NCBI GenBank assembly: GCA_012520995.1 | Contig: JAAYNI010000071.1 | Span: 1 to 64,000 of the forward strand | DNA: 64,000 bases | Direction of reading: 5' to 3' | DNA from: Candidatus Rifleibacteriota bacterium | Lineage (GTDB): Bacteria > Muiribacteriota > Ozemobacteria > Ozemobacterales > Ozemobacteraceae | Shown: positions 1,496-41,439 of the stretch, one piece after another | Layout: each line of letters starts with the position of its first letter | How positions within the stretch are numbered: position 1 is the first letter of the stretch | Translations under genes and position numbers: made by a program | Notes under the pieces: model-generated | Databases searched by the model: none | Seen by the model: the letters and a program-made list of their open reading frames with translations, nothing else | What the model was told of the DNA's origin: nothing

Positions 1496-3676
1496 GTGGA
1501 AGTTGAAAGCATTACAGCAAAAATAGAGCGTATAACTTTTTATAACGAGGCCAGCGGCTATTATGTTTTAAAGGCCGTTTCAGACGATGTTACTGGCGAA
1601 TTCACTTTAGTTGGCAATTTTGGCTATGTGCATCCTGGTGAGGAACTTCGTGTACACGGTCTTTGGGTGACTCATCCTACATTCGGAAATCAATTTCGCG
1701 CTCTTCGCTTTAACCTTCTAAAGCCTAACACTCTGGCAGGTATAAAGAACTTTCTTGGTTCAGGCAAGTTTAAGGGTATAGGTAAGAGTACAGCAGCTAA
1801 ACTGGTTGACTGTTTTGGAATAGACACGCTTGAAATTATAGAGAAAAATCCTGAGCGTTTGATGGAATGTCCAGGTATAGGCAGCCGTAAAATGGAAACC
1901 ATTATGAAAGGCTGGAATGTGCAACGTTCTTTGCAGGATGTGATGGTGTTTTTACAGGGTTACGGACTTTCTTCGGCTTATGCGTTCAAAATTTATAAAA
2001 AACTTGGGCGTGAAGCATACAAAAAGCTTTCAGAAAATCCATACATTCTCTCTTATGAGATTCCGGGAACAGGCTTTAAAAAAGCGGACAATATAGCTAA
2101 AGAATTCGGCATTTCCGGGAATGATCCCAGACGCATTGAGGCAGCCTTGATGTATGTAGCTGACAAGGCTATGAAGTCGGGCCACCTTTATTCTGAACGA
2201 GAGCGTCTCCTTGCGGTCTGCAATAAGCTCCTTGAGGCACCGGCATCGGAAGTTGATAAGATTGAGAGAGCTTTGCATAACTTGGCTTTACGCGGCAAGA
2301 TAAAGCTTGTTGAAAGTGAGGGCAAACAGCTTTGCTATCTGCCTTCCGCTTATGCTGCTGAATTCAATGCTGCTGCTCTTGTTAATAATAGACTGAGAGT
2401 TTCCTCTGCGATTTCGCGAGAAACCTTGTTAAAGGTTTTTGACTCTCCGGCATTTTCGGAGGTATTTTGTCTTTCCGATGCACAAAAAGCGGCTGTCGAG
2501 CTGACTCTTAAAGAGAGTTTTACTATAATAACAGGAGGGCCTGGAACAGGCAAAACCACAGTACTTAAAGCGGTTTCTTTTTCTCATAAGCTTTTAGGCA
2601 AAAAGGTGCTTTTGGCTGCGCCTACTGGCAGAGCTGCTAAGCGTTTGGCTGAGGTTTCCGGCGAAGAGACTTTCACTTTGCATCGTCTCTTGGAGTTTAA
2701 TCCTGAAACAGGCCATTTCAGTCGCACTCAGGAGCGGCCTTTGGAGGCGGATACCCTTATAATAGATGAAGCTTCAATGGTAGATGCCTTCTTGTTTGCC
2801 TCGATTCTTAAGGCTTTGCCTCTCTCGGCTTCATTAGTTTTTGTAGGAGATGCCGATCAGCTTCCCTCTGTTGGGCCGGGAGCAGTCTTGGGAGAGCTTT
2901 TGGCATCGGGCGCTGTTCCGGCTTTTAGACTGAAAGAAGTTTTTCGTCAGGTAGCCGATTCAGATATAATTATAAACAGTCACCTGATTAACAATGGACG
3001 TATGCCAAACCTTAGAATACCTGACGGAAATACCAAAACTGACTGTTATTTTATTCCGGAGGAAACAGAGCAGGATCTTTTGGATAAGCTGGTTAACGTT
3101 GTTCAGAGGAGTTTGCCTAAATCTTTCGGGTTTGTTCCTTCAAAAGATATTCAGGTTATAACTCCGACTAATAAGGGAAATTTAGGTGTGGCAGCTTTGA
3201 ATGTTTTGCTGCAGGCTGCTGTAAATCCTCCTTCACTTGAAAAGGAAGAATTTGCCCATTTAGAGAGAATTTTTCGACAAGGGGATAAGGTTATACAATT
3301 AAAAAACAATTATGACCTTAACATTTTTAATGGAGATATGGGAATCGTAGTTGAGGTGAATTCAGATGACAACGAACTCACAGTAGATTTCGATGATGTC
3401 ACGGTTACCTTGGATTCAGGCGATTTGCCGGATTTATCTCACGCTTATGCTGTAACTGTCCATAAAGCGCAGGGCAGTGAGTATCCTGCGGTAGTTTTTG
3501 TAGCTTCAACATCTCACTTTGTCATGTTGGAGAGAAACTTGCTCTATACAGCTTTAACCAGGTCTAAAAAAACTATTGTAATAATAGGGCAAAAGCGGGC
3601 GATTGAGATGGCTGTAAATAACAATCGCATAAAAAAACGCAATACATTGCTTTCAAAGCTTGTAAAGTCTCCATAA
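1496..3676 (+). CDS. recD2: RecD2-type ATP-dependent 5'-3' DNA helicase
   Basis: A 726-aa superfamily 1B helicase of the RecD2/RecD-like family, which acts in DNA repair and fork processing without RecBC. The N-terminal OB-like domain begins with the family's typical start (about 1-90). Helix-hairpin-helix-rich segments follow (90-200: PGIGSRKM, GTGFKKAD). Walker A GGPGTGKTT lies at about 348-356, motif II LIIDEAS about 422-428, GDADQLPSVGPG about 450, and the C-terminal helicase motifs HAYAVTVHKAQGSEYPAV (about 648-665) and YTALTRS near 685. Length is normal for the family. The GTG start is forced: an in-frame TAA lies at 1490-1492, and the upstream ATG at 1492 is in another frame. recB and recC are absent nearby, as expected for RecD2. 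Confidence 0.93.
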   Translation: MEVESITAKIERITFYNEASGYYVLKAVSDDVTGEFTLVGNFGYVHPGEELRVHGLWVTHPTFGNQFRALRFNLLKPNTLAGIKNFLGSGKFKGIGKSTAAKLVDCFGIDTLEIIEKNPERLMECPGIGSRKMETIMKGWNVQRSLQDVMVFLQGYGLSSAYAFKIYKKLGREAYKKLSENPYILSYEIPGTGFKKADNIAKEFGISGNDPRRIEAALMYVADKAMKSGHLYSERERLLAVCNKLLEAPASEVDKIERALHNLALRGKIKLVESEGKQLCYLPSAYAAEFNAAALVNNRLRVSSAISRETLLKVFDSPAFSEVFCLSDAQKAAVELTLKESFTIITGGPGTGKTTVLKAVSFSHKLLGKKVLLAAPTGRAAKRLAEVSGEETFTLHRLLEFNPETGHFSRTQERPLEADTLIIDEASMVDAFLFASILKALPLSASLVFVGDADQLPSVGPGAVLGELLASGAVPAFRLKEVFRQVADSDIIINSHLINNGRMPNLRIPDGNTKTDCYFIPEETEQDLLDKLVNVVQRSLPKSFGFVPSKDIQVITPTNKGNLGVAALNVLLQAAVNPPSLEKEEFAHLERIFRQGDKVIQLKNNYDLNIFNGDMGIVVEVNSDDNELTVDFDDVTVTLDSGDLPDLSHAYAVTVHKAQGSEYPAVVFVASTSHFVMLERNLLYTALTRSKKTIVIIGQKRAIEMAVNNNRIKKRNTLLSKLVKSP

Positions 3677-3780: not shown

Positions 3781-4869
3781 ATGGCTGATTTCAAGCAGGT
3801 TTGTGAAGCGGCAAAAAAAATAAAGGCTTCAGACGTTCATATAGTAAGCGATGAGCAAATTTATTGCCGTGTCAATGGTAAGATTGTGCCTCTTCCCGAT
3901 ATGCTAATGTCACAAAAAGAAGTGAAACAAAGCATTTTGGATACTAGTTCGCCTAAAGCCTTGGCAATTTTAGGCAAACAAAAGCATGTTACCTATGCGG
4001 CAGATATTGAGGACATAGGCAAGGTGCGTTTCGCTCTTTATTTTAACAGGCAGGAATTTGCGCTTTCAGCCAGATTTATTCCGGATGATTTAACAAAAAT
4101 GTTAGGTCTTTTGCCTAATCCGCAAATTGAGAGCTTCTTGGATCAAAACAGAGGCTTGATACTTGTCGGAAGTCCTTCGGGTGAAGGTAAAAGCACTACT
4201 GTGGCTTCTATGCTCAATTATATTAATAACAAGCATGACAGGCTCATTTTTACAGTAGAGAACCCTGTGGAATATGTTCATAAAGATAATCGCTCAACAT
4301 TTATTCAGCGCAGTATACCTATCGATATTGTGGACTTTTATGACGGTTTAAGCGAAGCCGCAAGGATTGCTCCTGATATAGTAGTGACCGACTCAATTTC
4401 TTATGATGACGCTTTTGATCAAGCCTTGACTCTCTCTGAGTCAGGTTGCATGGTAATAGCTCTTACAGAAGGCGGAGATTGCCAGCAAATTATTGAAAGA
4501 GTAATTAAATCCCGAAAAATAGAAGATCAAGCGAGTTTTCGCAGCAGGCTTGCTACTCAGCTTATGCTTACTGTAGGCCAGCGTCTATGCCCTATGGCTG
4601 TATCTTCCATGACACGGGTTCCCATTTTTGATATTATGGAAAATACTCAGCAGTCCAAGATTTTTATCAGAAATGACAACCTCACAATGTTCCGCACGGT
4701 TCAGCAAGAACATGAACGTGCAGCATCAGGGGGGAGAACTGACACTTTGGCTAGAACCTTTGACAAACAGCTTCAGACTTTGCTCGCGGAAGGCAAGATA
4801 ACCAGAGAGACGGCTTATGACTTGGCTGTTAATAAACAATCCTTCCCTTTGCCTAAGAAAGGGGTGTAA
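3781..4869 (+). CDS. Degenerate PilT-like ATPase, first of a tandem pair
   Basis: A 362-aa member of the PilT/GspE secretion ATPase family. PilT hexamers power retraction of type IV pili at the inner membrane. The overall PilT order is present: N-terminal domain (1-115), P-loop region at 130-140, the ENPVEYVHKD segment (PilT IEDPIEF), and the QLMLTVGQRL / FDIMENTQ region. Key residues are altered. The Walker A reads SPSGEGKS, with Lys137 kept but the first Gly replaced by Ser. The Walker B/Asp-box region reads DIVVTDSISYDD, without the GE and RD of the family's VGEMRD. The His-box TLHT is replaced by ALTEG. It is followed 3 nt later by a second PilT homologue. ATPase activity is therefore doubtful; a regulatory or heteromeric role is inference. 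Confidence 0.8.
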   Translation: MADFKQVCEAAKKIKASDVHIVSDEQIYCRVNGKIVPLPDMLMSQKEVKQSILDTSSPKALAILGKQKHVTYAADIEDIGKVRFALYFNRQEFALSARFIPDDLTKMLGLLPNPQIESFLDQNRGLILVGSPSGEGKSTTVASMLNYINNKHDRLIFTVENPVEYVHKDNRSTFIQRSIPIDIVDFYDGLSEAARIAPDIVVTDSISYDDAFDQALTLSESGCMVIALTEGGDCQQIIERVIKSRKIEDQASFRSRLATQLMLTVGQRLCPMAVSSMTRVPIFDIMENTQQSKIFIRNDNLTMFRTVQQEHERAASGGRTDTLARTFDKQLQTLLAEGKITRETAYDLAVNKQSFPLPKKGV

Positions 4870-4872
4870 TAA

Positions 4873-5922
4873 ATGGAAGTAGTCAAGCTTATAGAAAAGG
4901 TTTATACGGCAGGCGGCAATGAGCTTCATTTGAAAGTGGGCACTAAGCCCATGATGAGGCGCAACAAACATTTAATACAGCTGGATGTTCCTGTATTGGT
5001 TGAAGATGACATGAAACATCTTTTCAATGACCTTTTAAAGGATGATCACCGCAAAGAATTTGAAGAGGAAAGTTTTTTAGAGTTAAACTTCTGGGACAAC
5101 AAACCTTGTAATTACAGACTTTCTTTGTTTCGCTCTCAAGGAACCACAGTTGCTACTATAAAGCTTATTGAAAGCGAAGTCCCGTCTATTGATAAGTTGC
5201 AGTTTCCTCAGAGCATTGTATCCTTGCTTTCAGCTCGACAAGGGCTTCTGATATTTGCAGGACCTACTCGCTCTGGTATAACAACATTGATGGCTAGTGC
5301 TATTCAACATATAAATGAAACTTCTGAGCGCCACATACATATAATAGAAGATCCTGTTGAATATCGTTACAAAAACGATAAAAGCTATATTTCACAGCGC
5401 CAGCTTGGCAAAGACCTTTTGGTTATTGAGCAAGGCATCAACTTTGCAAAGCGCATGGACGTAGATGTTTTGGTCATAGGCGATATTAAACGTGAAATTC
5501 CTTTTTTCAACATTATTGAGTATATGATGGGCGGCCATATGGTGATACTCTGTATGCCGACTTTGGGTGTTACAACTACCTTGGAGAAATTTGTTTACTC
5601 ATTTGATGAATCCAGAAGAAATTACATATATCACGCGCTTTCAGAACATCTCTTGGCTGTTATGTCTCAAGGCTTGATAGAGAACAGAATGAAAAGCGGA
5701 GTTGTTCCTGTTCACGAACTCCTGCTCTGCAATACTATTACCACTGATATATTCTCAAAAGGAAAACTTGCTCAAATAGAACCCAACATGAGATCTGCTG
5801 GACCTGGAAGCGTTACCTTCGCAGAAACGGTTAAAAGGCTGATTACTCAAGGCACTATATCTGAGGCGGAGGGAAACACCTTCTTGGGCGAAGTGCGTAA
5901 TTCGCGGCAGAATAGACCTTAA
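4873..5922 (+). CDS. Degenerate PilT-like protein lacking the Walker A lysine
   Basis: A 349-aa PilT-family protein, paralogous to the gene 3 nt upstream. The P-loop is GPTRSGITT at residues 130-138, so the nucleotide-binding lysine is isoleucine (136). The downstream IIEDPVEYRYKND segment is well conserved. The Asp/Walker B stretch VDVLVIGDIKRE keeps an acidic residue but not GExRD, and the His-box reads LCMPT instead of TLHT. It is the same length as ordinary PilT and has no frameshift, so it is under selection as a protein rather than simply decaying. The stop codon overlaps the next ATG (TAATG), which couples it to the radical SAM gene. No intact pilT, pilB or pilC is in the window. Likely a pseudo-ATPase partner; function unknown. 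Confidence 0.8.
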   Translation: MEVVKLIEKVYTAGGNELHLKVGTKPMMRRNKHLIQLDVPVLVEDDMKHLFNDLLKDDHRKEFEEESFLELNFWDNKPCNYRLSLFRSQGTTVATIKLIESEVPSIDKLQFPQSIVSLLSARQGLLIFAGPTRSGITTLMASAIQHINETSERHIHIIEDPVEYRYKNDKSYISQRQLGKDLLVIEQGINFAKRMDVDVLVIGDIKREIPFFNIIEYMMGGHMVILCMPTLGVTTTLEKFVYSFDESRRNYIYHALSEHLLAVMSQGLIENRMKSGVVPVHELLLCNTITTDIFSKGKLAQIEPNMRSAGPGSVTFAETVKRLITQGTISEAEGNTFLGEVRNSRQNRP

Positions 5923-6770
5923 TGCTTAAAGCTCTTTATTTTGAGACTAACAAAGCAGACGGTTCTGTTAACTGTCTGCTTTGTCCGCATAAATGCAAAA
6001 TTTTACCAGGCAAAAAAGGTTTTTGCGGTGTAAGAACTAATATAGGCGGCGAACTCTTTTCTTTGGTTGACAGAGTTTATTCTGGAATAGCTTATGATCC
6101 TATTGAGAAGAAACCTCTTTATAGATTTCATCCAGGCAGCCGTATATTTTCTATTGGCAGTTTTGGATGTACCTTGAGGTGTGATTTTTGTCAGAACTGG
6201 CATCTGCTTAATTTGCCTGAAAGAGCTCCATTACAGGATGACGATGCTATTTTGCAAGCGGCTGCACAGGAAGGTTCCATAGGCATAGCCTATACTTATA
6301 ACGAGCCGACAGTAAGCTATGAAACAGTTTTAAGGCTCTCCAAAAAAGCAAGGGAGAGGGGACTTGTAAATGTGCTTATCACAAACGGTTATATCAACCC
6401 GGAGCCATTTACAGAGCTTCTTAAGTATATTGATGCTGCCAATATTGATATTAAGGCGTTTAATAACGAATATTACAAAAAGTTTTGCAAGGGCGAACTT
6501 GAACCTGTTAAAGAGAACGTGAGAATAGCTTCAAAAATGGTACATCTTGAGATTACCACTTTGCTGACAGGCGAAAACAACTCAGCTCCAGATGAAATAG
6601 AGGCCTTAGCTAAATTTTTGGCTGATTTAGACGAGAATATTCCGTTGCATTTGAGCAGATACTTTCCTGCTTACAAAATGACTGAACCGCCGACAGATAT
6701 TAAGCTGATGCTGAGAGCAAAAGAAATTGCGTCTCAGCATCTCAAGCATGTTTATTTGGGCAACGTATAG
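5922..6770 (+). CDS. amrS: AmmeMemoRadiSam-type radical SAM enzyme
   Basis: A 282-aa radical SAM protein matching the AmmeMemoRadiSam system enzyme (AmrS). An N-terminal cysteine cluster (C18, C21, C25, C35; CLLCPHKC) is followed by YDPIEKKPLYRFHPGS. The radical SAM motif is C83-x3-C87-x2-C90 (CTLRCDFCQNW), then the IAYTYNEPTV segment and a C-terminal HVYLGNV, all characteristic. It is shorter than typical members (over 320 aa). The usual partners, an AMMECR1-domain protein (AmrA) and a MEMO-like protein (AmrB), are not in the window. Translation is coupled to the pseudo-PilT gene by TAATG. The substrate of this system is not established. The 3' end overlaps the convergent nifS gene by 19 nt. 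Confidence 0.85.
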   Translation: MLKALYFETNKADGSVNCLLCPHKCKILPGKKGFCGVRTNIGGELFSLVDRVYSGIAYDPIEKKPLYRFHPGSRIFSIGSFGCTLRCDFCQNWHLLNLPERAPLQDDDAILQAAAQEGSIGIAYTYNEPTVSYETVLRLSKKARERGLVNVLITNGYINPEPFTELLKYIDAANIDIKAFNNEYYKKFCKGELEPVKENVRIASKMVHLEITTLLTGENNSAPDEIEALAKFLADLDENIPLHLSRYFPAYKMTEPPTDIKLMLRAKEIASQHLKHVYLGNV

Positions 6771-28459: not shown

Positions 28460-29584
28460 CTATCCGCCGAGGACTTCCTTGAATTTGTCGAGGAAAGATT
28501 TGCCCGAGCCTATACCAGTCGCTTTTGATTCAGGGTCTTCTTCAGCCAGCTGCATCAAGAGTTCCTTTTGTCTCTTGTTCAGCTCTGTGGGAGTTCTGAC
28601 GAAGATTTTAACTAGCTGATCGCCTACGCCGCCTCTAAGGGATTTTGAGCCGTAGCCTCTAAGACGGAAAATCTTGTTCGTCTGAGTTCCAGGCGGTATC
28701 TTGATTTTTACAACGCCTTTAAGAGTAGGCACTTCAATCTCGCCACCTAATGCAGCCAGAGGGAAGGTGATATCTTTTTCGCATATAATGTCGTCGCCGA
28801 CTCGCTCGAAAAAGTCGTGTTTCTTCACCGTCAGGAATATATAAAGGTTGCCGTTGGGACCGCCTTTTGAGCCAGGTTCACCTTCGCCTGCAAGTTTAAG
28901 TTTGCTGCCGGTTTCTACTCCTGGAGGAATCTTCACGTCTATGTTTTGTTCGTGGCTGATTTTGCCGCTTCCCTTACAGGTTTTGCACGGTTTTTCAATG
29001 ATTTCTCCAGAACCTTGGCATTGGTGGCAGGTGCGTCTCATGGCAAAGAAGCCCTGAGATATTGAAATAGAACCTGAACCGTTACAAACAGGACATTGTT
29101 TGCTGCTTGTTCCAGGCTCTGCGCCAGAACCGCCGCATTCCGTACAGTTGGCGGGTCTGTTGATTTTTATTTGTTTTTCGCAGCCGAATACGGCTTCTTC
29201 AAAATCAATTGTTAAGTCATAGCGAAGGTCGGCTCCGCGAACAGCTCCTCTGGAAGCAGATGAGTATCCGCCTCCGCCAGAGAACATGCCGGAGAAGAGA
29301 TCTCCGAAGATGTCATTGAAGCTGCTGAATCCGCCAAAGTCACGGAAATCAAATCCTGCCGCATTAAGGCCGGCATGGCCAAATTGGTCATAAGCGCTTC
29401 TTTTGTCTTTGTCAGACAGAACCTGATAGGCTTCGTTTATTTCTTTGAACTTGGCATCAGCATTGGCTTCTTTGCTAACATCAGGGTGATATTTGCGGGC
29501 AAGATCCCTGAACGCTTTTTTGATCTCGTTTTCGTCGGCATTTCTGGCGACTCCGAGCACCTCGTAATAATCACGTTTTGACAT
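28460..29584 (-). CDS. dnaJ: Chaperone DnaJ (Hsp40)
   Basis: A 374-aa full-length type I DnaJ: J-domain (about 4-70) with the HPD triad in [10 protein letters not shown], a Gly/Phe-rich linker (75-125), four zinc-finger repeats CxxCxGxG (about 150-215: [32 protein letters not shown]) and C-terminal substrate-binding domains. It stimulates DnaK ATPase and delivers unfolded clients. Last gene of the chaperone operon. GGAG precedes the ATG. A short hairpin sits between it and dnaK. Confidence 0.97.
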
Positions 29585-29609
29585 TAATCTGTGACTCCAG
29601 TTGTATTTT

Positions 29610-29633
29610 CCTCTCTTCCTGAAGGAAGAGAGG
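29610..29633 (-). promoter_or_regulatory. Intercistronic hairpin between dnaK and dnaJ
   Basis: CCTCTCTTCC (29610-29619) and GGAAGAGAGG (29624-29633) form a perfect 10-bp stem with a 4-nt loop. The mRNA side is followed by a short A-rich stretch rather than a strong U-run, so it probably tunes mRNA stability or dnaJ expression rather than ending transcription. Confidence 0.55.
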
Positions 29634-29648
29634 ATATGTCAGTCGTTA

Positions 29649-31496
29649 TCAGTCAGCTTTTTTGAATTCAGCATCAACAACGTTCGGATCGTTATCGCTG
29701 GCTGAAGCGGTATGCCCTGCTGCGTTTGCATGTGCTTGTTGCTGCTGAGCATTGGGGTTGCCATATATGGCTTCGCCCATCTTTTGAGCTGTCTGTTGCA
29801 ACTCTTCTATCTTAGCTTTGATATTTGCGGTATCCTTGGTTTCCAGAGCCTTTTTAAGTTCATCGACTTTGCTCTGAATCTGACCTTTTAGTTCGGCCGG
29901 AATCTTGTCGCCCAAGTCGCTGAGAGTTTTTTCGGTCTGATAGACAAGGCTTTCGCCCGTATTCATTGTGTCAATATTGTCTTTCAGCTTTTTATCTTCT
30001 TCGGCGAATTGTTCAGCTTTTTTGATCATTTCGTCGATCTCATCTTTTTTCAGGCCAGAGCTGTTGGTGATAGTGATTTTCTGCTCTTTGTTGGTTCCGA
30101 GGTCTTTCGCAGAAACGTTTACTATGCCGTTAGCGTCAATGTCGAATGTGACTTGGATTTGGGGCACGCCGCGAGGCGCGGGGGGGATGCCGACCAAATC
30201 AAAGCGTCCGAGAGTTTTATTGTCAGCCGCCATGGGTCTTTCACCCTGAAGAACGTGGACTGAAACTGCGGGCTGATTGTCTGCCGCTGTTGAGAAAACT
30301 TGGCTTTCTTGTGTCGGAATAGTAGTGTTTCTCTTAATGAGTGTAGTCATTACGCCGCCGAGAGTTTCAATTCCGAGAGAGAGGGGGGTGACGTCAAGAA
30401 GAAGAATGTCTTTTACGTCTCCGTCCAAGATACCAGCTTGGATAGCAGCACCCATAGAGACGCATTCCATTGGGTCAATTCCTCTTTCGGGCTCTTTGCC
30501 GAAGTGGTCATTGAGAAGCTTCTGGATTATGGGCATTCTTGTAGGACCGCCGACCATGATTATGTGGTCAATTTCGGATCTCTTGAAACCAGCATCGTTC
30601 AGAGCATTGTCTATAGGAGTGAGACAGCGTTTTACAACGTCGTCGATCAGCTGTTCAAGTTTCGCTCTGGTGATGGTCATTGTAAGGTGTTTGGGACCAT
30701 CCTGGTTTGCGGAAATAAAGGGCAGGTTGAGGTCTGTGCTGGTAGTGGTTGAGAGCTCAATTTTGGCCTTTTCGGCTTCTTCGCGGATTCTCTGCATTGC
30801 CATGCTGTCTTTTGACAAGTCAATGCCTTCGGCTTTTTTGAACTCGTCAACTATGTAGTCGATAAGCCTTGCGTCCATGTCGGTGCCGCCGAGCTGAGTG
30901 TCTCCGTTGGTTGATTTAACTTCGACCAAGCCGCTTGCGAGCTCAAGAATAGTAACGTCTAGTGTTCCGCCGCCAAGGTCAAAAACCAAAATCTTTCTTT
31001 CGCCTTCTTTGTCAAGACCGTATGCAAGAGCGGCTGCGGTAGGTTCGTTAATTATTCTCTTTACTTCAATACCTGCAATTGCGCCCGCGTCTTTGGTGGC
31101 TTGTCTTTGAGCGTCATCAAAATAAGCTGGAACTGTGATAACAGCGCCTGTTACCTTGTCGTTTAAGAAAGCTTCAGCGTCAGCTTTAATTTTCTGAAGT
31201 ATGAAAGAAGATATTTCCTGCGGAGTATAAACTTTTCCGTCTATATTATATTTATGGTTTGATCCCATTTTGCGCTTGGCGGCAAGAATGGTTCTGTCAG
31301 GGTTTGTGGTAGCCTGTCTTCTTGCGGGTTCGCCAATAAGTCTGTGTCCGTCTTTGGTAAAAGCCACAACGCTGGGGAATGCTTTTCCGCCTAGGGAATT
31401 GCCTTCCGCGCTGGGTATAATTACCGGCTTGCCAGCTTCTATAACTGAAGCAGCCGAGTTAGATGTTCCAAGGTCTATTCCTATAACTCTTCCCAT
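29649..31496 (-). CDS. dnaK: Chaperone DnaK (Hsp70)
   Basis: A 615-aa Hsp70: N-terminal ATPase with [13 protein letters not shown] (about 5-17), [12 protein letters not shown] and the [13 protein letters not shown] region, then the substrate-binding domain ([17 protein letters not shown]) and a Gln/Ala-rich C-terminal tail ending [11 protein letters not shown], close to the DnaK-type VVDAEFEE end. GIDLGTSNS has Ser where most DnaK proteins have Thr. RBS AAGGAGGA. Part of the groE-hrcA-grpE-dnaK-dnaJ operon. Confidence 0.97.
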
Positions 31497-31548
31497 GATG
31501 TGTCCTCCTTGTAGGTGTTTATGGTTGAATTAAATAATTTCAAAAATA

Positions 31549-32106
31549 TTATTGAGGTCTGTTAATAACGACTTTTGCCGTTCTTAAAACTCTGTCTTTA
31601 TAAGTGTAACCTTTTACAAAAATCTGTATTACTTCGTTTTCTTCGGCGCCTTCTTTGTATGAATGGGACATAGCTTCATGGACTGTAGGATCAAAAGGCT
31701 TACCGATAGCAGGTATTTCTTTTACTCCCGACTTTGTGAGCATATCTGAAAATTGAATTGCAAACATCTCAAAGCCGTCTGCAAAAGATTTGTCGACGTT
31801 TGCGACCGCAAGCTGTTCAACAGCTTTATCTAAGGTGTCCAATACTGGGAGAAGGTTTTTCAGAAAGTCTTCTACGCCTCTGTTGCGAGCTTCGCTCTGA
31901 GCAGTTTCAGTGCGGCGTTGCAGGTTTTGATAGTCGGCTAGAGCTCTGAAATATTTGTTCTTGGTATCCTCCAGCTCTTTTTGCAGCTGTTTAAAAGATT
32001 TATCATCTGAAGAAGTTTCAGTTTCAGCTTTTGTCTTGCTTTCCTCTGATAACTCTACTTCTTCTTGAGTGTTTTTTGGGGAGTCTTGTTTTTTGTCTTT
32101 CTTCAT
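31549..32106 (-). CDS. grpE: Nucleotide exchange factor GrpE
   Basis: A 185-aa GrpE. A charged Lys/Glu/Ser N-terminus (1-45) precedes the long coiled coil (DTKNKYFRALADYQNLQRRT) and the beta domain with the family signature around GFEMFAIQFSDMLTKSGVKE, PTVHEAMSH and VIQIFVKGYTYKDRVLRTAK. It releases ADP from DnaK. It sits between hrcA and dnaK, the common order in CIRCE-controlled operons. Confidence 0.95.
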   Translation of the reverse strand: MKKDKKQDSPKNTQEEVELSEESKTKAETETSSDDKSFKQLQKELEDTKNKYFRALADYQNLQRRTETAQSEARNRGVEDFLKNLLPVLDTLDKAVEQLAVANVDKSFADGFEMFAIQFSDMLTKSGVKEIPAIGKPFDPTVHEAMSHSYKEGAEENEVIQIFVKGYTYKDRVLRTAKVVINRPQ

Positions 32107-32150
32107 CTTTTATATTCACCTTTGAAAAATAACCATGTCTAGAGCTTAAC

Positions 32151-33230
32151 TTAATGTTGGCCTATAAAAACCCGGCTTAAAGCATTTGAAAGCTGTGCCA
32201 ATATAGCTACCACTTGTCCGTAGTTCATTCTCAGTGGACCTATCACGCCTATGTTGCCTATGGACTGATTAGGTCCGGAGTAGGAAGCGGTAACTAGTGA
32301 CATATCATTCAAAGCCAGTCCGGAATCGGTTCCTATGTTTACCATAATCTGGGGTCGTTGATCCAGAGAATTTGAAAGAAGTTCCAATAATTCTTCTTTT
32401 TGATTCAGCATTTGCAGAAGCATTTTCATTTTTTCCGGCTCGCTGAACTCAGGCTGTTCAAGAATATTGGCAAATCCGTCAATAAGCAGAGGGTTGTGTA
32501 CGGTATGAGCTTTTTGTTGAGACTCTTTGATCTTGGCAACCAAAGCGTTTAAAAGTTCATTATATTTTCCCAGCAGCTGTTTTATGTGATTTATCTGGCC
32601 TTGCTCGACCTTGGCATTTCTTTGATGACAGAGTTTCACGTTCAGAAGCATTACTATTCTGTCTAGCATTTCATCGGTAATGTCAGGTGCAATATCTACA
32701 ACTGTATTATCTATATTGCCGAGCTGATCAATCATAATTACCATCAGTTTGTCTGAAAGAATTCTGAAAAATTTTATATGTTCCAGAGCTGCGGATTTCA
32801 TTTGTGGCATTAACAACAGACCTGCCAGACCGGTTTGGTTGCAAACAAATCTGACTGCTTGTTTGAGCAGCTCTTCCAGTTCCAAGTCTTCTCTTTGAGC
32901 TAAGCTTTGCAGTTTGGTTACTATGCTTTCTTCCAAATTGCTTATTTTCTCATACTTTATGAGGCATGAAACGTAGAATCTGTAGCCTTTTTCAGTAGGC
33001 AAGCGGCCTGCTGATGCGTGGGGGGCTGCCAGGTACCCCATTACCTCAAGGTCTGACATCTCATTGCGAATGGTCGCAGGAGAGCAGGAGAGCGAGCTCA
33101 GCTTGGACAAAGTCCTGGAGCCGACCGGCACGCCTGTCATTATAAAAGAATCGCAAATTTCCTGAAGAATGATTTTTTGTCTTTCATTCAGGGCATCAGC
33201 GTCTATATTTTTGTTGTCAGTTAAAGGCAT
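32151..33230 (-). CDS. hrcA: Heat-inducible transcription repressor HrcA
   Basis: A 359-aa HrcA. The winged-helix DNA-binding domain (about 15-90) contains LNERQKIILQEICDSFIMTG, PVGSRTLSKLSSLSCSPATI and RNEMSDLEVMGYLAAPHASA; a GAF-like and dimerisation region follows. HrcA binds CIRCE and is reactivated by GroEL. ATG 33230 is chosen over a TTG at 33302, which would add 24 residues not seen in the family; neither has a strong ribosome site. Its predicted operator is the perfect CIRCE at 36957-36983, so the operon is autoregulated. Confidence 0.94.
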   Translation of the reverse strand: MPLTDNKNIDADALNERQKIILQEICDSFIMTGVPVGSRTLSKLSSLSCSPATIRNEMSDLEVMGYLAAPHASAGRLPTEKGYRFYVSCLIKYEKISNLEESIVTKLQSLAQREDLELEELLKQAVRFVCNQTGLAGLLLMPQMKSAALEHIKFFRILSDKLMVIMIDQLGNIDNTVVDIAPDITDEMLDRIVMLLNVKLCHQRNAKVEQGQINHIKQLLGKYNELLNALVAKIKESQQKAHTVHNPLLIDGFANILEQPEFSEPEKMKMLLQMLNQKEELLELLSNSLDQRPQIMVNIGTDSGLALNDMSLVTASYSGPNQSIGNIGVIGPLRMNYGQVVAILAQLSNALSRVFIGQH

Positions 33231-33258
33231 GTTTATAAAAATCCAGTTAATAAAAGCC

Positions 33259-33289
33259 TTTTTCTCTCCCCTTTCGGGGAAGAGAAAAA
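33259..33289 (-). promoter_or_regulatory. GAAA-tetraloop hairpin between groEL2 and hrcA
   Basis: On the mRNA strand CTCTTCCCC-GAAA-GGGGAGAG forms a strong stem with a GNRA loop and one bulged base, flanked by T6 before and A5 after. It lies 20-80 nt from both genes and, lacking a downstream U-run, resembles an RNA-processing or stability element that could lower hrcA relative to groEL. Confidence 0.55.
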
Positions 33290-33308
33290 AGCGGGGAATC
33301 AAGAGAGA

Positions 33309-34925
33309 TCAGTATCCCATGTCAGGGAGTTGCGGTGTCTCGTCTTTTGGCTCAGCTACCAATACATCAGTAGTGAGCAATATAGAAACGATTGAAGCCG
33401 CGTTCTGCAAAGCTGATCTTGTGACTTTGGCAGGGTCTATTATACCTGCTTCGAACATATCCACGTATTCGTCGGTCATAACGTTGTAACCAAGATTCTG
33501 ATTATCAGAATTTGTGATCTTGTCTGCTATGATTGCAGGGTTCAATCCTGCATTTGACAAAATGGTGTTAATCGGAGCAGCGAGAGCTTTTTCCAGAATG
33601 TTTACGCCTATTCGTTCTTCGTTTGTCAGGTCGTTTTTGAAGTTTTCCAGAATTTTAGCGGCTCTGAGAAGAGTGACACCGCCGCCAGCGACAACGCCTT
33701 CTTCGACGGCTGCGCGTGTTGCGCTCAAAGCATCTTCGACTCTGGTTTTCTTTTCTTTCATTTCAGTTTCTGTAGCAGCACCGACTTTGATTACGGCGAC
33801 GCCGCCAGAAAGTTTCGCAAGTCTTTCTTGGAGTCTTTCTTTTTCGAAAGAGCTGGAAGTTAGTTCCAAAGTTTTGCGAATTTGAGCCATTCTGCTCTTG
33901 AGTTGCTGAGCATCGTATCCGCCTTCTATGATAGTGGTGGATTCCTTGCCGACTATTACGCGTTTGGCTCTGCCAAGCATATTGACTGTCGCAGACTCTA
34001 GTTTTGTGCCAGTTTCTTGGGAGATCAGAAGTCCGCCAGTGAGGATGGCCATATCTTCAAGCATAGCTTTTTTGTTGTCGCCAAAACCCGGAGCCTTTAC
34101 GGCTACACAGTTGAATGTGCCTCTGAGCTTGTTGACAACCAAGGTCGCAAGCGCATCTCCAGCTATGTCTTCTGCTATGAGAAGGAGAGGGCGATTTAAC
34201 TCAACTACTTTTTCCAAAATGGGCAGAAGCTCTTTAATTGCATTGACTTTGGCATCGGTTATGAGAACATACGGATTTTCCAGAACCGCTTCCATGCGCT
34301 GGGAATCTGTGGTCATGTAAGGGCTTACATAGCCTTTGTCAAATTCCATGCCGTCAACGAATTCAAGCGAACTGTCAAAAGTGCTTGCTTCTTCAACGGT
34401 AATTACGCCGTCTCTGCCTACTTTTTCCATAGCTTCGGCAATGACTTCGCCTATTTCAGGATCTCTTGCGGAAATTGTAGCTACCTGAGCTACTTTGGCT
34501 TTGTTGTCATCGATCCTTTGAGAAACATTGGCGATTTCTTCAACGATCCTGTTTACAGCTTTGTCTACGCCGCGTCTGATATAGACAGGGTTGGCTCCTG
34601 AAGCTACATTTTTGAAGCCTTCCTGAAGCATTGCTTGAGCGAGGACTGTGGCTGTGGTTGTGCCGTCGCCGGCCACATCGTTGGTTTTGCTTGCGACTTC
34701 TTTGATGAGCTGAGCGCCCATATCTTCAAATGGGTCGGGCAAAGAAATTTCTCTGGCTATGGAAACGCCATCGTTGGTAACCGTGGGGCTTCCGTATGAT
34801 TTTTCGATGACCGCATAGCAGCCCTTGGGGCCAAGGGTGGCTTTAACTGCATTAGCTACAGCTTCCACGCCTTTTGCCAAGGTTCGCCTTGCGTCTTCGT
34901 TATATTTTAATTCTTTAACGCTCAT
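33309..34925 (-). CDS. groEL2: Chaperonin GroEL, second copy, without GGM tail
   Basis: A 538-aa GroEL with intact ATP-binding [13 protein letters not shown] (about 85-98), TLGPKG near 30, the intermediate and apical domains, and the [16 protein letters not shown] region near the C-terminus. It is clearly paralogous to the copy at 35284-36921. Unlike most GroEL, and unlike that copy, it ends in PQLPDMGY rather than a Gly/Met-rich tail, which normally lines the cavity and aids folding. Positioned between groES and hrcA in the same operon, so both copies share the CIRCE promoter. Divergence in the apical region suggests different clients; that is inference. Confidence 0.96.
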
Positions 34926-34944: not shown

Positions 34945-35238
34945 TCAGTTCGCTACGACAGCCAGAATGTCTTCTTCTTTGAGAATCAGATAAGAATCTT
35001 CGCCGAATTTAACTTCTGTTCCGGCATATTTGGAGAACACAACGTTGTCGTCCTTTTTTACCTGGAGAGAAATTCTCTGGCCGTCATTGTTGAGTTTGCC
35101 GGGGCCTACAGCTACCACAACGCCTTCTATGGGGCGTTCTTTGCTTGCGGTTTCAGGAAGGATAATTCCGCCTTTTGATACTTCTTCTGTTTCTTTGGGC
35201 TGTATAATAACTCTGTCATTCAAAGGTTTTAAATTCAT
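34945..35238 (-). CDS. groES: Co-chaperonin GroES
   Basis: A 97-aa GroES: N-terminal [16 protein letters not shown], mobile loop around 16-35 ([14 protein letters not shown]) and the typical VVAVGPGK and [19 protein letters not shown]. It caps GroEL; here a single GroES gene lies between two groEL genes and presumably serves both. RBS AAGGAAA. Confidence 0.97.
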
Positions 35239-35283: not shown

Positions 35284-36921
35284 TTACATCATTCCAGGCA
35301 TCATGCCGCCACCCATTCCGGGCATAGGAGCAGCTTTTTTGTCTTCGGGAAGGTCAGCTACCAAAACTTCGGTAGTCATGAGAATAGAAGCGATGGAGGT
35401 AGCGTTCTGAAGGGCTGATCTGGTGACCTTTGCAGGGTCTATGATGCCAGCTTTGAACATGTCTGTATATTCGTTTGTGAGAACGTTGTATCCGTGATTG
35501 GGTTTGTTGGCTTCTTTGATTTTAGCGATTATGAGAGAGGGCTCAAGACCTGCGTTTTCAAGAATGAAGTGAGCGGGTCTGCTGAGAGCGTTTCTCAAAA
35601 TGTTGACGCCTATGCGCTCATCGCCTTCCACTTTGATTTCATCAAGGGTGGGGAGAGCGTTCAGAAGAGCGATTCCGCCGCCGGCAACAACGCCTTCTTC
35701 AACAGCTGCGCGTGTTGCGCTCAGAGCGTCTTCTACTCTGGTTTTTCTTTCTTTCATGGCTGTTTCGGTTGCCGCGCCAACTTTGATTACAGCTACGCCG
35801 CCTGAAAGTTTGGCAAGTCTTTCCTGCAGTTTTTCTTTGTCATAAGAGCTGGAGGTGTGTTCGATCTGGTTTTTGATCTGAGAGATTCTGTTGGCTATAT
35901 CTTCTGTTGAGCCGGAACCTTCAATGATGGTGGTGTTTTCTTTTGTAACCACTATCTTTTTGGCTGAACCTAAATGTTCGATGTTAGCGTTTTCGAGTTT
36001 GAGGCCGACTTCTTCGCTGATCTTGGTGCCGTTAGTCATAACAGCTATGTCTTCCAGCATGGCTTTTCTTCTGTCGCCGAATGCGGGGGCTTTAACCGCT
36101 ACACAGTTGAATGTGCCTCTGAGTTTGTTTACTACGAGCATTGCAAGAGCTTCGCCTTCAATGTCTTCAGCAACAATAAGAAGAGGTCTCTTTGCCTGAA
36201 CTACGCTCTCGAGAACAGGGAGAATATCTTTGATGTTGGTGATTTTGGAGTCTGTTATAAGAACATAAGGATTGTCCAGAACAGCTTCCATTCTTTCAGC
36301 GTCTGTTACCATGTAAGGGCTGACATAACCTTTGTCGAATTCCATGCCTTCTACAAAATCAAGGGTGGTATCAAAGCTCTTGGCTTCTTCAACTGTGATT
36401 ACGCCGTCTTTGCCGACTTTATCCATTGCTTCGGCAATGAGATTGCCTATTTCTGGATCTCTGGCAGAAACAGTAGCTACCTGAGCGATACTTTCTTTGC
36501 TGTCGTCGATTCTCTTGGACTGGTTTTTGATAGATTCCAAGACTTTTGCTAAGCCTTTTTCAAGACCGCGTTTTACATAAATAGGTGTGGCGCCTGCCGT
36601 GGTGTTCTTAAAGCCTTCTTGGACTATGGCTTGAGCCAGAACAGTGGCTGTAGTGGTGCCGTCGCCGGCTATGTCGTTGGTCTTGCTGGCGACTTCTTTT
36701 ACCAGCTGAGCGCCCATGTTTTCAAATTTATCTTCAACTTCAATTTCTTTTGCTATTGATACGCCGTCATTGGTTACAGTGGGGCTTCCGAAGCTTTTGC
36801 TCAGGATAGCGTAACAACCTTTGGGGCCTAGTGTTGATCTTACTGCGTCTGCAACGGTATTAACGCCTTTTTCAAGAGCTCTTCTTGCGTCTTCTCCGTA
36901 TTTAAGCTGTTTAGGTGCCAT
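35284..36921 (-). CDS. groEL1: Chaperonin GroEL, first copy, with GGM tail
   Basis: A 545-aa GroEL beginning [19 protein letters not shown], with [23 protein letters not shown] and a C-terminal [16 protein letters not shown] 36921 is chosen because AAGGAG precedes it and an upstream in-frame start (36963) lies inside the CIRCE operator. It is the first gene of the operon, directly behind the promoter, and so is expected to be the more abundant chaperonin. Confidence 0.97.
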
Positions 36922-36956
36922 TATAATTCTCCTTGTGAAAAATATTTTGAGTTTTG

Positions 36957-36983
36957 TTAGCACTCATTTAAGTCGAGTGCTAA
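36957..36983. promoter_or_regulatory. Perfect CIRCE operator
   Basis: TTAGCACTC (36957-36965), 9-nt spacer, GAGTGCTAA (36975-36983), the exact consensus. It overlaps the -10 box and the predicted start site, 36 nt upstream of the groEL1 ATG. Confidence 0.98.
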
Positions 36984-37137: not shown

Positions 37138-38004
37138 ATGTCAAATAATCAGGGCAGGAAGCCTGAGAAAATAACCTTATCTTCGGTTTTTAAACGTCTT
37201 GATCCGGGAGATTACAAATTTATTCTTCTAGTTACTCTTTTTTTTGTAATTCCTGTTGTTATAAGCGTTTTGATATTGGTTTTTAAAGACCCTCCTGACA
37301 TAGCGGCATCCAAGATTTACAGACCTTCTGCAAGCCGTAAAAGCTCTCTGAATTTCGGAGAAGCCCAGAAAAAAAACAAAGAGAAAGTCTCCAAACGCAG
37401 CAATTTTCCTTCTATACGCAGTTATGTGACTCCTAGTTCGCCTGTTATGCAAGAGATTGCAGAATTTAAAAAGCATATGGAAAAACACTCAAGAAACTAT
37501 GTGCCGCCGATACCATTGGGAGCTTCAACTGAGCAAAAAGAGATGTTGATAGCCGAACATAATTACGATCTTTCTATTGGCAATAATTTTTATGAGCTTG
37601 GCAACTATGAGGAAGCGGAGCGTGCTTATGCCGCTGCTTTGAGAACTGCTGAACAATCAGATAATACTTTTCTTAAGGTGATGGCGATGGGCTCTTTAAT
37701 AGCAGTTTATGAAGCGCAAGGTAATAAAGAAAAAACATCGGAAGCTTATAAAAAATATGCCGAATATGCTGCAGCTCTTCCCCCAGGCTCTCAAGGCAGG
37801 ATGATTGGCAAATATATGAAAGCTTCTGCAGCTATGCTTAAAGAGCTCTCTGCAAATTATAATACTTATTTGCCGGGACTTCAGAAAACTTTAGATAAAG
37901 ACCTTTCTTCTAGTCCAGAAAAGAAACAGGTTATGCTGGAGAGCTTGAAGAATGCTCCCAGTATTTTCCCCGTTCAATTTGATGATATTTTCGATGACCT
38001 TTGA
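37138..38004 (+). CDS. Membrane-anchored TPR protein heading the pseudopilin operon
   Basis: A 288-aa protein with one transmembrane segment (about 28-50) and a C-terminal helical region with TPR-like repeats (NNFYELGNYEEAERAYAAAL, about 145; MAMGSLIAVYEAQGNKEKTS). Cytoplasmic N-terminus (MSNNQGRKPEK). ATG 37138 follows GAGGGAG; more upstream in-frame starts are not supported. It is followed 13 nt later by the PilX/GspK-like gene, so it is probably part of the same pilus or secretion machinery, by context only. Confidence 0.7.
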   Translation: MSNNQGRKPEKITLSSVFKRLDPGDYKFILLVTLFFVIPVVISVLILVFKDPPDIAASKIYRPSASRKSSLNFGEAQKKNKEKVSKRSNFPSIRSYVTPSSPVMQEIAEFKKHMEKHSRNYVPPIPLGASTEQKEMLIAEHNYDLSIGNNFYELGNYEEAERAYAAALRTAEQSDNTFLKVMAMGSLIAVYEAQGNKEKTSEAYKKYAEYAAALPPGSQGRMIGKYMKASAAMLKELSANYNTYLPGLQKTLDKDLSSSPEKKQVMLESLKNAPSIFPVQFDDIFDDL

Positions 38005-38017
38005 TATGGAGGAATGC

Positions 38018-40903
38018 ATGAAAGTAAGAACTTTAAATAGGCGTGGCAGTGCCTTCGTAGTGATCATAGGCATTTTGTCTGTAATTATTATTATTGGTTA
38101 TTTGTTCATGGGTTCCACCATAGAACAAGGAAGGCAGACTTCTCAGAGTGTTCAAGGCTTGCAGGCTACTTATTTAGCGGAAGCTGCTCTTGAAAGAACT
38201 ATGACTTTGCTTAAAACAGATGCCAATGAGCAGGATTTTAAAACTTTTGAAACAGCAAAGTCAATTCCTTTGCAGCTGCGCTTGCCTATGAAGGAAGGCT
38301 CAGGCTCTATTTCAAGTTCCTTAGGAACCGATAAACTTCTTGCTTTGCCGAACTCAGCTCTTGTCACTGAGGGAGTAACTTTGACTAAGGAAGATTTGCA
38401 AGCTGAGGGTTTGGGCACCTCCTTGGATGAGCTTGTAGAATTTATGACAGACGGCCGAGCCGAATCCTATGATGTTAAGGTAAATATTAAACTGGATAAG
38501 GCTTTCTCATATGGTCCGGGAAAAGAGTATGAGGATTATAAAATTCCTGGAGTCCAATTGCCTTGGAATATAAGAAAAGACGTTGAAAATTTTCTTGATG
38601 GCAAAGGCTATGTAGCTATGATTTTACAGTTTCCTGATAGCATGAAGTGGTTTGACTTTACTATTAACCTGGGCGGAGGAGTATTTTCTCTAGAGCTGGA
38701 TTTAGTAAAGGAATTTGACAAACTAATTGCTGCCATGGGTATCAAGGACTTTGAATTATCAAAATATCTTTTGATAGATACTTTTGCTAGGTGGATTTTC
38801 AATGATGTGCTTTTTAAGGGTAAAGACCCCCCTGTTTATCCTTTCAAAAAAATACTAGAGAAAAATCTGAAGACTTCTTTGGAGGATTTTCTTCCTGCCG
38901 ATTTTCTGGCAACCTCGGGTGTTTCCCCGACGGATAAGGATTTACACTTTGAAAAATATGGACAACTTTTAATAGAGTGTGAAGCCAGCATAAAATATAA
39001 AGGTTCTACAGAGACGAAAAGACGCATTTCTGCTGTCAAAGACTTTAAAGTAGCAGACTGTGAACCCATAGCTCCCATGTACAGTTTCTTTGTTAATAAT
39101 TCTCCTAATGACTATCTGACCTTCAATAGCGCTGGGGGACAATTCTATGTTAACAATATTGACCATGGCGGTTTGGGTGAGATGATAAACAAAATAAAGA
39201 GCATACCCGGCAAAATAGTCAATGTTTTCAAAAAGAAAGCCCCTCCTACAATGGATGAGCTCGAAAAGAAAGAATATCCTGGTCTAATAAGACTGAATTA
39301 CAAGGGTGATGAAACTTTCCCATACCCTATGTTGTGCAATGTCAGTTTTCTAGGCGATACAACTGTGCCAGATATGCCGGATACCAAGAAACTTGTAGAT
39401 CTGCCGCTTGGTATAGACAATCTTTTCAGATCTATGGAGGTTGGATCTATTATTAAGCCTGGCAGCAGCATGGTTATTGCCTCTGGTCACATGACTATGA
39501 AAGGAGTGGTGAAAGACGGCGGAGGAGCCAGTAATGAATTCGCTAAAGATAAGACTCCTCCTTCTGATGCACAAGCGCCAGATAAGCTTACTAAAGAAAC
39601 TGGAGGAGCTCCTGCTCCTAAAAATACGGCAGGCATGACGGGAACCTCCTTTTCAGATGAGACTGCAGATAAACAAAAGAATAATCCTAGTTTAGGAATG
39701 AATATGACTTCAGGCTTGGGCTTGGCAGATGTCATGGGGCAATTAAAGAAAATGGCCAAGATTAATGTTGTTCCTAATCTTATGGACATCAGTAAACACT
39801 TGCTGGATTTTACCCTTGGTATGGCAAACTATGCTTTCAATGAAGTAAAAGCCAGCTCAGAGACTCTTAGCAAGGTTCCAATAAAAATGGATGGCGGTGA
39901 CAGCTTTGAAAGATGGGAAATGCCATATTTTGGCACAAAAAACTCGTTTTATACTTTGCCTACCACTGGAATATCTGATAATAGAACCCATTTTTTTGGC
40001 AATAATGCTATGCATCCGACTATGACCAGAGAAATAGAGGGCAATGTAATGAAGGTTTATCGTCAGTGGAACATGATGATAGTCGGTTTGAAGCCTGAAC
40101 ATAGATTGCCGACTCCTTGGCCTCCTATAACTATACCGCCCTTTCCTGTCCCTATTTGGTATACGAAAACTATTGCTGAAAAGTATGGCTATTCCTTGGG
40201 AACTTTGGCTCCTGTGGATAATGAGGGGAATGTGGAACATGCTATAAACTCATATGACCCTGCTTTGTTATCTAATTATCCCCCTAACTTGAGCACTGCC
40301 GAACAATATGCTAAGAAAGCTACTTATTATTATGACACCTACCAAGAGTTTTTGGACGACATTAAAAATCGAACCACAAAAGTTGATATAGAAGGGGTGG
40401 GCGAAAAAGATTGTTTCTTGCTCAATGGTATTACTTTTGTTGCTGACAGTATTGGCACCTTCAACGAGCCTTTTGTTCCGCCTCTTGACGACAAAAAAGA
40501 CTTCTATGTCACGGGCAAGGGCGCTATAGTTTGCTCTGGAAACTTTTTCTTGGGCTGCAACATAAGATGTGCGGATCGCGGCGATTTGAGAACCAATTTT
40601 TCTTTGATTTGCCGTACAGGTGGACTGATTGTGCCTGCAACTTCCGACTCTCTTCTTTTTGAGGGTTCCCTCTATACAGATATGGGTTTAATGAGCTTGA
40701 TGGGTGCAGGTCTTCAAATTAGAGGAAACTGGGTTACGGATGTTTTTAACAAGCCGCTTATGGGAGGAGCTGTACAGCTGGATTACATAAGCTCAAGAGT
40801 GAGAACTTCTCTTGGCAGTTTGCATCCTGAGAGAGGCAGGTTTGAGCCTAACAGATATTTCGTAACATTCAGCCCGGCTTGGGCATCTTGGAGGGTTCAC
40901 TGA
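38018..40903 (+). CDS. Very large PilX/GspK-like pseudopilin
   Basis: A 961-aa protein with a pilin-like N-terminus: RRGSAFVVIIGILSVIIIIG, a short basic leader ending in Gly, then a hydrophobic helix without the usual Glu at +5, as in GspK/PilX minor pilins. The segment QSVQGLQATYLAEAALE is typical of the PilX N-domain. The other 900 residues are unlike any pilin I recognise; they include Pro/Lys/Gly linkers (APDKLTKETGGAPAPKNTAG) and a Cys-containing C-terminal part. GspK and PilX proteins are normally 200-400 aa, so this is far longer. The ribosome site GGAGG is well placed and the next gene overlaps by TGATG. Presumably sits at the tip of a pilus-like fibre. Confidence 0.75.
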   Translation: MKVRTLNRRGSAFVVIIGILSVIIIIGYLFMGSTIEQGRQTSQSVQGLQATYLAEAALERTMTLLKTDANEQDFKTFETAKSIPLQLRLPMKEGSGSISSSLGTDKLLALPNSALVTEGVTLTKEDLQAEGLGTSLDELVEFMTDGRAESYDVKVNIKLDKAFSYGPGKEYEDYKIPGVQLPWNIRKDVENFLDGKGYVAMILQFPDSMKWFDFTINLGGGVFSLELDLVKEFDKLIAAMGIKDFELSKYLLIDTFARWIFNDVLFKGKDPPVYPFKKILEKNLKTSLEDFLPADFLATSGVSPTDKDLHFEKYGQLLIECEASIKYKGSTETKRRISAVKDFKVADCEPIAPMYSFFVNNSPNDYLTFNSAGGQFYVNNIDHGGLGEMINKIKSIPGKIVNVFKKKAPPTMDELEKKEYPGLIRLNYKGDETFPYPMLCNVSFLGDTTVPDMPDTKKLVDLPLGIDNLFRSMEVGSIIKPGSSMVIASGHMTMKGVVKDGGGASNEFAKDKTPPSDAQAPDKLTKETGGAPAPKNTAGMTGTSFSDETADKQKNNPSLGMNMTSGLGLADVMGQLKKMAKINVVPNLMDISKHLLDFTLGMANYAFNEVKASSETLSKVPIKMDGGDSFERWEMPYFGTKNSFYTLPTTGISDNRTHFFGNNAMHPTMTREIEGNVMKVYRQWNMMIVGLKPEHRLPTPWPPITIPPFPVPIWYTKTIAEKYGYSLGTLAPVDNEGNVEHAINSYDPALLSNYPPNLSTAEQYAKKATYYYDTYQEFLDDIKNRTTKVDIEGVGEKDCFLLNGITFVADSIGTFNEPFVPPLDDKKDFYVTGKGAIVCSGNFFLGCNIRCADRGDLRTNFSLICRTGGLIVPATSDSLLFEGSLYTDMGLMSLMGAGLQIRGNWVTDVFNKPLMGGAVQLDYISSRVRTSLGSLHPERGRFEPNRYFVTFSPAWASWRVH

Positions 40904-41424
40904 TGCCATTTAGCACTTTCTTTAAACAGAAATCAGCAGTTTCTCTTCTTGAGGTTCTTATCGCTGCTGTAATAATAGCTCTGACCTTTATTCCCATCAT
41001 GAGATTGGTGGACTTCGGTTCTGTTTCAACTGTGAAGCAAGGCAACTATGCCAGGGCGACGAGACTTGCTCAAGAATTGATTGAAGAATGCAAATCTGTT
41101 CCCTTCAAACTTTACGAGGAGAAATATCGTGAGCTGGGTAGCGAGGGAAAGAATGAAGAAGACCTTTCTAATACTGATTTCTTTCCGAAAACCCAAGAAA
41201 ATATACAAAAGTTTGTTGATGAAGAAGGAAAGAAGGGAAACTTAAAGCAATTTAAGTTAAAAGCCAAGATCAAGGGGATAAGAAACGAGCTGAATCAATT
41301 GGCCGAAATATGGTTCTTTGTAGAAATGAATTGGGTTGACAAAGGCGATCTTGAGTCCGCCTCAGAAGAGCAAAAAAGAACCGTAAAGGTGGGTTCAGCT
41401 TATCATAATGCTGAAATAATTTGA
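40903..41424 (+). CDS. GspI/PilV-like minor pseudopilin
   Basis: A 173-aa prepilin-like protein. The N-terminal KQKSAVSLLEVLIAAVIIAL fits type II/IV pseudopilins: short charged leader, likely cleavage after Ala, Glu at +5 and a hydrophobic helix. The remainder is charged and helical/beta mixed. The start at 40903 shares bases with the stop of the upstream gene (TGATG) and is preceded by GGAGGG. Together with the genes before and after it makes a set of GspK-, GspI- and GspJ-like subunits. Confidence 0.8.
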   Translation: MPFSTFFKQKSAVSLLEVLIAAVIIALTFIPIMRLVDFGSVSTVKQGNYARATRLAQELIEECKSVPFKLYEEKYRELGSEGKNEEDLSNTDFFPKTQENIQKFVDEEGKKGNLKQFKLKAKIKGIRNELNQLAEIWFFVEMNWVDKGDLESASEEQKRTVKVGSAYHNAEII

Positions 41425-41439
41425 GACAGGAGATTAGCG

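Follow-up and report, generated by a model that had tools for sequence, protein, structure and literature searches.

A co-inherited pair of PilT-family pseudo-ATPases with different catalytic losses in the Ozemobacteraceae

In PilT rings the Arg fingers that complete an ATP site come from the adjacent packing unit, closure of an interface goes with ATP binding, and the first Arg finger also makes a structural contact (PMC6858323). The catalytic Glu and other invariant residues of the family have been described (PMC5424180). In Vibrio cholerae PilU-driven retraction still works when PilT has lost its Walker A Lys (K136A) but fails without PilT, so that an ATP-incompetent PilT is needed beside an active paralog (PMC6821130). 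No description of PilT-family pseudo-ATPases was found in the mostly open-access literature searched. Here we analyse two adjoining PilT paralogs, A and B, in a 64,000-nucleotide stretch of a Candidatus Rifleibacteriota contig (JAAYNI010000071.1, hereafter the window). Whereas K136A is a laboratory mutant in a system of homohexamers, A and B form a natural pair in which both members are altered, and differently.

The two genes are separated by three bases:

3781..4869, + strand: A, PilT-fold pseudo-ATPase of 362 aa, intact open reading frame
4873..5922, + strand: B, PilT-fold pseudo-ATPase of 349 aa, intact open reading frame

Both matched PilT structures across nearly their whole length (A to 5fl3, E 2.6e-40; B to 2gsz, E 2.6e-44), which bears out an earlier reading of the bare sequence, the first-pass annotation, in describing both as full length and B as frame-intact. 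Pfam PF00437 (T2SSE, the type II/IV secretion ATPase superfamily) matched both above its cut-off of 24.9 bits (A 60.6, B 64.7). On NCBIfam TIGR01420 (PilT/PilU), A and B scored 215.0 and 216.8 bits, far below the cut-off of 319.1, compared with 480.7 bits for the canonical PilT of the same genome. AlphaFold models, each built on the protein's own orthologs, gave the PilT fold for both. The model of B reached a pLDDT of 88.7, with TM scores of 0.87 against PilU and at most 0.91 against PilT; that of A reached 78.3, with a TM of about 0.8 against the best-matching PilT/PilU structures and one weak stretch at residues 162-184. A and B share with PilT and PilU the two-domain full-length fold, the Asp-box Glu, the first Arg finger and the side-by-side arrangement of paralogs, which is common for pilT and pilU, but differ from them in the residues of catalysis. 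These columns were tabulated across orthologs, with roles taken from PMC5424180 and PMC6858323:

4171..4194, + strand: P-loop of A, S131-S138 (SPSGEGKS); Ser instead of the first Gly in 19/19, Lys137 retained in 19/19
4258..4272, + strand: Asp box of A, E160-E164 (ENPVE); Asp replaced by Asn in 19/19, Mg-coordinating Glu retained in 19/19
4390..4395, + strand: D204-S205 of A, in place of the Walker B Gly and catalytic Glu in 19/19
4438..4476, + strand: former HIS box of A, E220-G232; first His is Cys, Ser or Thr and second His is Glu or Asp in all orthologs
5260..5286, + strand: P-loop of B, G130-T138 (GPTRSGITT); Ile136 (ATA, 5278-5280) instead of Lys in 19/19
5479..5484, + strand: G203-D204 of B; catalytic Glu replaced by Asp in 19/20 orthologs, one fragment among the 20
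5530..5562, + strand: former HIS box of B, G220-T230; second His is Gln, Pro or Ser in all orthologs

All orthologs of A thus combine a shifted P-loop (SxSxxGK; GSPSGEGKST in the window copy) with an ENPVE Asp box, Asp-Ser for Gly-Glu and no HIS-box His (ESGC...TEGG in the window copy). The earlier reading that the Walker A Lys of A is present while the first Gly, the GE and the HIS box are lost therefore holds for all 19 orthologs, the window copy among them. In B, the fourth P-loop residue is Arg instead of Gly in 19/19, alongside the Ile already pointed out for the window copy. The claim that both the Asp box and the HIS box of B are altered stood in half: the second HIS-box His is lost, but the Asp box (IEDPVEY) is intact, with the Mg-coordinating Glu in 20/20, and the altered Asp box is that of A. 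One B ortholog has Gly-Glu at the catalytic position; its Walker A Lys is still Ile. The second HIS-box His corresponds to the phosphate-contacting H230 of Geobacter metallireducens PilT. Both Arg fingers are present in A in 19/19, and the first is present in B in 19/19. At the second Arg finger position, which we assigned from a spacing of 15 residues, B has Lys in 14 orthologs, Arg in three and His in two.

Because A retains the Walker A Lys, the Asp-box Mg-Glu and both Arg fingers, it should bind ATP, and is predicted to do so without hydrolysis. B should not bind ATP normally in its own P-loop, since the Walker A Lys is replaced by Ile. We infer from these residues that A and B have lost hydrolysis in different, fixed ways. 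An altered route, in which an acidic residue close by, either D204 of A or one from B, replaces the Glu and the pair works as a slow but real motor, would draw on the Lys, Mg-Glu and Arg fingers kept by A, on the always acidic second HIS-box position of A and on the Asp at the catalytic position of nearly all B orthologs. We consider it improbable, as conservation of the catalytic Glu is complete across the family (PMC5424180), substitutions at this Glu or at the HIS-box His abolish Pseudomonas aeruginosa twitching (PMC6858323), and the scores of both proteins fall far short of the PilT family cut-off.

We searched 24 Ozemobacteraceae genomes, the window genome included, and 16 genomes from other families of the phylum. 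Of the 24 family genomes, 19, from 9 of 11 genera, have a complete adjoining A-B pair, always in the order A then B and with -4 to +14 nt between the genes (19/19 complete loci). Among the family genomes with no complete pair, two (G008 and G025) carry a copy cut off at a contig end, the contig of a third (G005) stops short of the expected site, and G014 is only 70% complete; in G026, which is 94% complete, neither A nor B was found. The 16 genomes of other families gave matches at the ordinary PilT level only. In a phylogenetic tree A and B each formed a single clade with full support, the stems being long (1.47 and 1.76 changes per column), and the losses therefore predate the divergence of the sampled genera. 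A-B is a co-inherited PilT-family pseudo-ATPase pair that is fixed in the Ozemobacteraceae. The first-pass annotation had suggested a pseudo-ATPase pair and named relatives with normal catalytic residues or pseudogene features as grounds against it; the complete orthologs share the same losses and show no frameshifts, and no A or B ortholog with the full normal catalytic set was found among the relatives. A sequencing or alignment artefact behind the unusual motifs was ruled out, as 19 genomes agree.

While A was searched within the phylum, B was also searched outside Riflebacteria, by scanning genome contigs and plasmid records. With B as a single sequence the contig scan gave no match; with an alignment of B it returned 18 loci; the titles of 15 name Riflebacteria, Rifleibacterium or Ozemobacter(aceae), and one of the other three belonged to a MAG labelled Methylomirabilis. 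The plasmid records contained only PilT-like proteins with less than 60% identity to B (about 28% among the best matches listed).

A rival reading takes A and B for former pilT copies that are turning into pseudogenes. Across genera A and B do evolve faster than their intact neighbours, and the window copies are the fastest, with the longest branches in the tree (0.76 and 0.77). However, in comparisons between close relatives A gave a dN/dS of 0.045-0.163 and B one of 0.024-0.192, a range similar to that of intact neighbour genes, indicating strong purifying selection and arguing against decay. As none of these comparisons involves a genome close to the window's genus, the window copies were assessed by the retention of invariant columns instead. 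Window A keeps 65 of the 75 columns (87%) that are invariant in the other 18 orthologs, with a 37% majority match at other columns; window B keeps 59 of 63 (94%), with 43% elsewhere. Furthermore, the same losses recur across 9 genera, reading frames are intact in every complete copy, and the lost sites are mostly fixed to one new residue, whereas decay would let them drift. Decay was rejected on frame integrity, dN/dS and invariant-column retention, and we regard it as very improbable. Judging from the long branches, constraint on the window copies may be somewhat weaker.

In most relatives A and B are the last two genes of a five-gene cluster, T1-T2-H-A-B. Like A and B, T1 and T2 are tandem PilT paralogs, but those of this type (type I) keep the Walker A Lys and the catalytic Glu, with one exception among the T2 proteins. 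Unlike any of its orthologs, this T2 (L076:2304-3341) has Lys at the position of the catalytic Glu (GKMRD), by mutation or assembly error. In T1, Lys replaces the first HIS-box His. H is a protein of about 715 aa with HEAT and TPR repeats. In one genome (G010) the T1-T2-H trio and A-B lie at separate sites. A second, type II trio (L103, L142-L146, L149, L155 and L156) has a partly degenerate T2, in which Pro takes the place of the second HIS-box His in 9/9 and the Asp-box Asp has become Asn, Ser, Cys or Lys; its T1, too, carries Lys at the first HIS-box His. The pair at L155 is altered even further. Other PilT pairs in relatives are intact. The phylum thus habitually carries PilT paralogs in pairs, changed to varying extents, and A-B is the most extreme of them.

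No T1-T2-H trio was found in the window genome, and the type I trio was not found in G009, which has A-B. Since the pair persists in both genomes without type I genes, T1-T2-H as obligate partners were ruled out. The window genome (2.84 Mb, 96% complete) nevertheless gave seven strong hits of PilB type and encodes, next to a PilB, a canonical PilT whose catalytic residues are all present. On the window contig itself a whole-genome search found A and B as the only pilus ATPases, in line with the earlier statement that the window holds no intact one. Elsewhere in this genome a 910 aa protein (L097:4466-7198) fuses HEAT repeats to a PilT-type ATPase, and similarly long PilT-containing frames recur in relatives.

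The direct neighbours of A-B in the window are the following:

1496..3676, + strand: RecD2 helicase, upstream neighbour; T1-T2-H sits at this place in most relatives; not part of the system
5922..6770, + strand: AmmeMemoRadiSam-system radical SAM enzyme (AmrS-like; TIGR04337, 252 bits); probably outside the system

The stop codon of B overlaps the start of the radical SAM gene by one base (TAATG, 5920-5924), in line with the translational linkage noticed before. This linkage is peculiar to the window genome: in every relative examined the radical SAM gene is absent beside A-B, and with a neighbour that is not conserved a functional link was rejected.

Further along the window, three consecutive open reading frames (37952-42972) have prepilin-like hydrophobic N-termini by eye (GSAFVVIIGIL, AVSLLEVLIAA and FTFVEVMAALV). 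They gave no Pfam match and are possibly minor pseudopilins. Judged from translations only, two GroEL paralogs (33309-34925 and 35284-36963) flank a single GroES-like frame (34945-35238), and HrcA-, GrpE-, DnaK- and DnaJ-like frames (28460-33302) adjoin this group.

The neighbourhood of A-B bears on the question whether the pair serves pili. The window neighbours, RecD2, AmrS and NifS/NifU-like genes, are not pilus genes, a pseudopilin-like gene adjoins B in some relatives only, and the stem branches are very long. These observations would suit recruitment to a job other than pili, with the PilT fold serving only as an assembly platform, for instance of a scaffold or nucleotide sensor in a Riflebacteria-specific envelope or trafficking process. 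We consider such a recruitment unlikely, since most relatives have, ahead of the pair, two PilTs in which Walker A and the catalytic Glu are intact, and since features of the PilT ring interface (Arg finger 1, the R195 position and the Asp-box Glu) are retained. The first-pass annotation had proposed a heteromeric ring or a regulator of a PilB/PilT elsewhere, which fits the intact PilT and PilB in the window genome and the intact PilT pair beside A-B in most relatives.

We infer the partner, ring and role of A-B from these data. Probably A-B is a fixed non-hydrolysing PilT pair, perhaps assembled into a mixed ring, that acts as an adaptor or regulator of active pilus motors. A more specific version, which we put forward tentatively, is a locked, alternating mixed ring with ATP at the A sites only, none of it hydrolysed, which evolved to serve type IV pilus motors as a dedicated adaptor or brake. 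The ATP site of A would be closed in trans by its neighbour, most simply B (or another PilT), while the own site of B would stay empty and open, so that closed and open interfaces alternate in a static ring. Such a non-turning ring could dock at the pilus base and either let another motor engage or hold it off. The motor served might be T1-T2 where present and the canonical PilT in the window genome. The closest parallel from experiment is the V. cholerae PilT K136A mutant (PMC6821130). That the second Arg finger of B is mostly Lys counts against the adaptor or regulator reading, as do the separate homohexamers of V. cholerae PilT and PilU.

As a variant of the adaptor or regulator reading, with which its probability overlaps, A and B might form two separate homomeric pseudo-ATPases that each tune a motor, much as PilT and PilU of V. 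cholerae assemble into independent homohexamers (PMC6821130). We find this arrangement rather doubtful. The genes always adjoin in the same order with at most 14 nt between them, the predicted losses are complementary (an ATP-binding A and a non-binding B), and a ring of B only would offer no ATP to the conserved Arg finger 1. However, conservation of this finger need not mean that it acts on ATP, because it also makes a structural contact (PMC6858323).

The pair bears on two open questions, namely why several PilT paralogs occur in many bacteria and what role PilT has beyond ATP use. As a natural pair whose losses are split, fixed and under family-wide selection, A-B offers a ready means of telling ATP binding, hydrolysis and docking apart in pilus motors.
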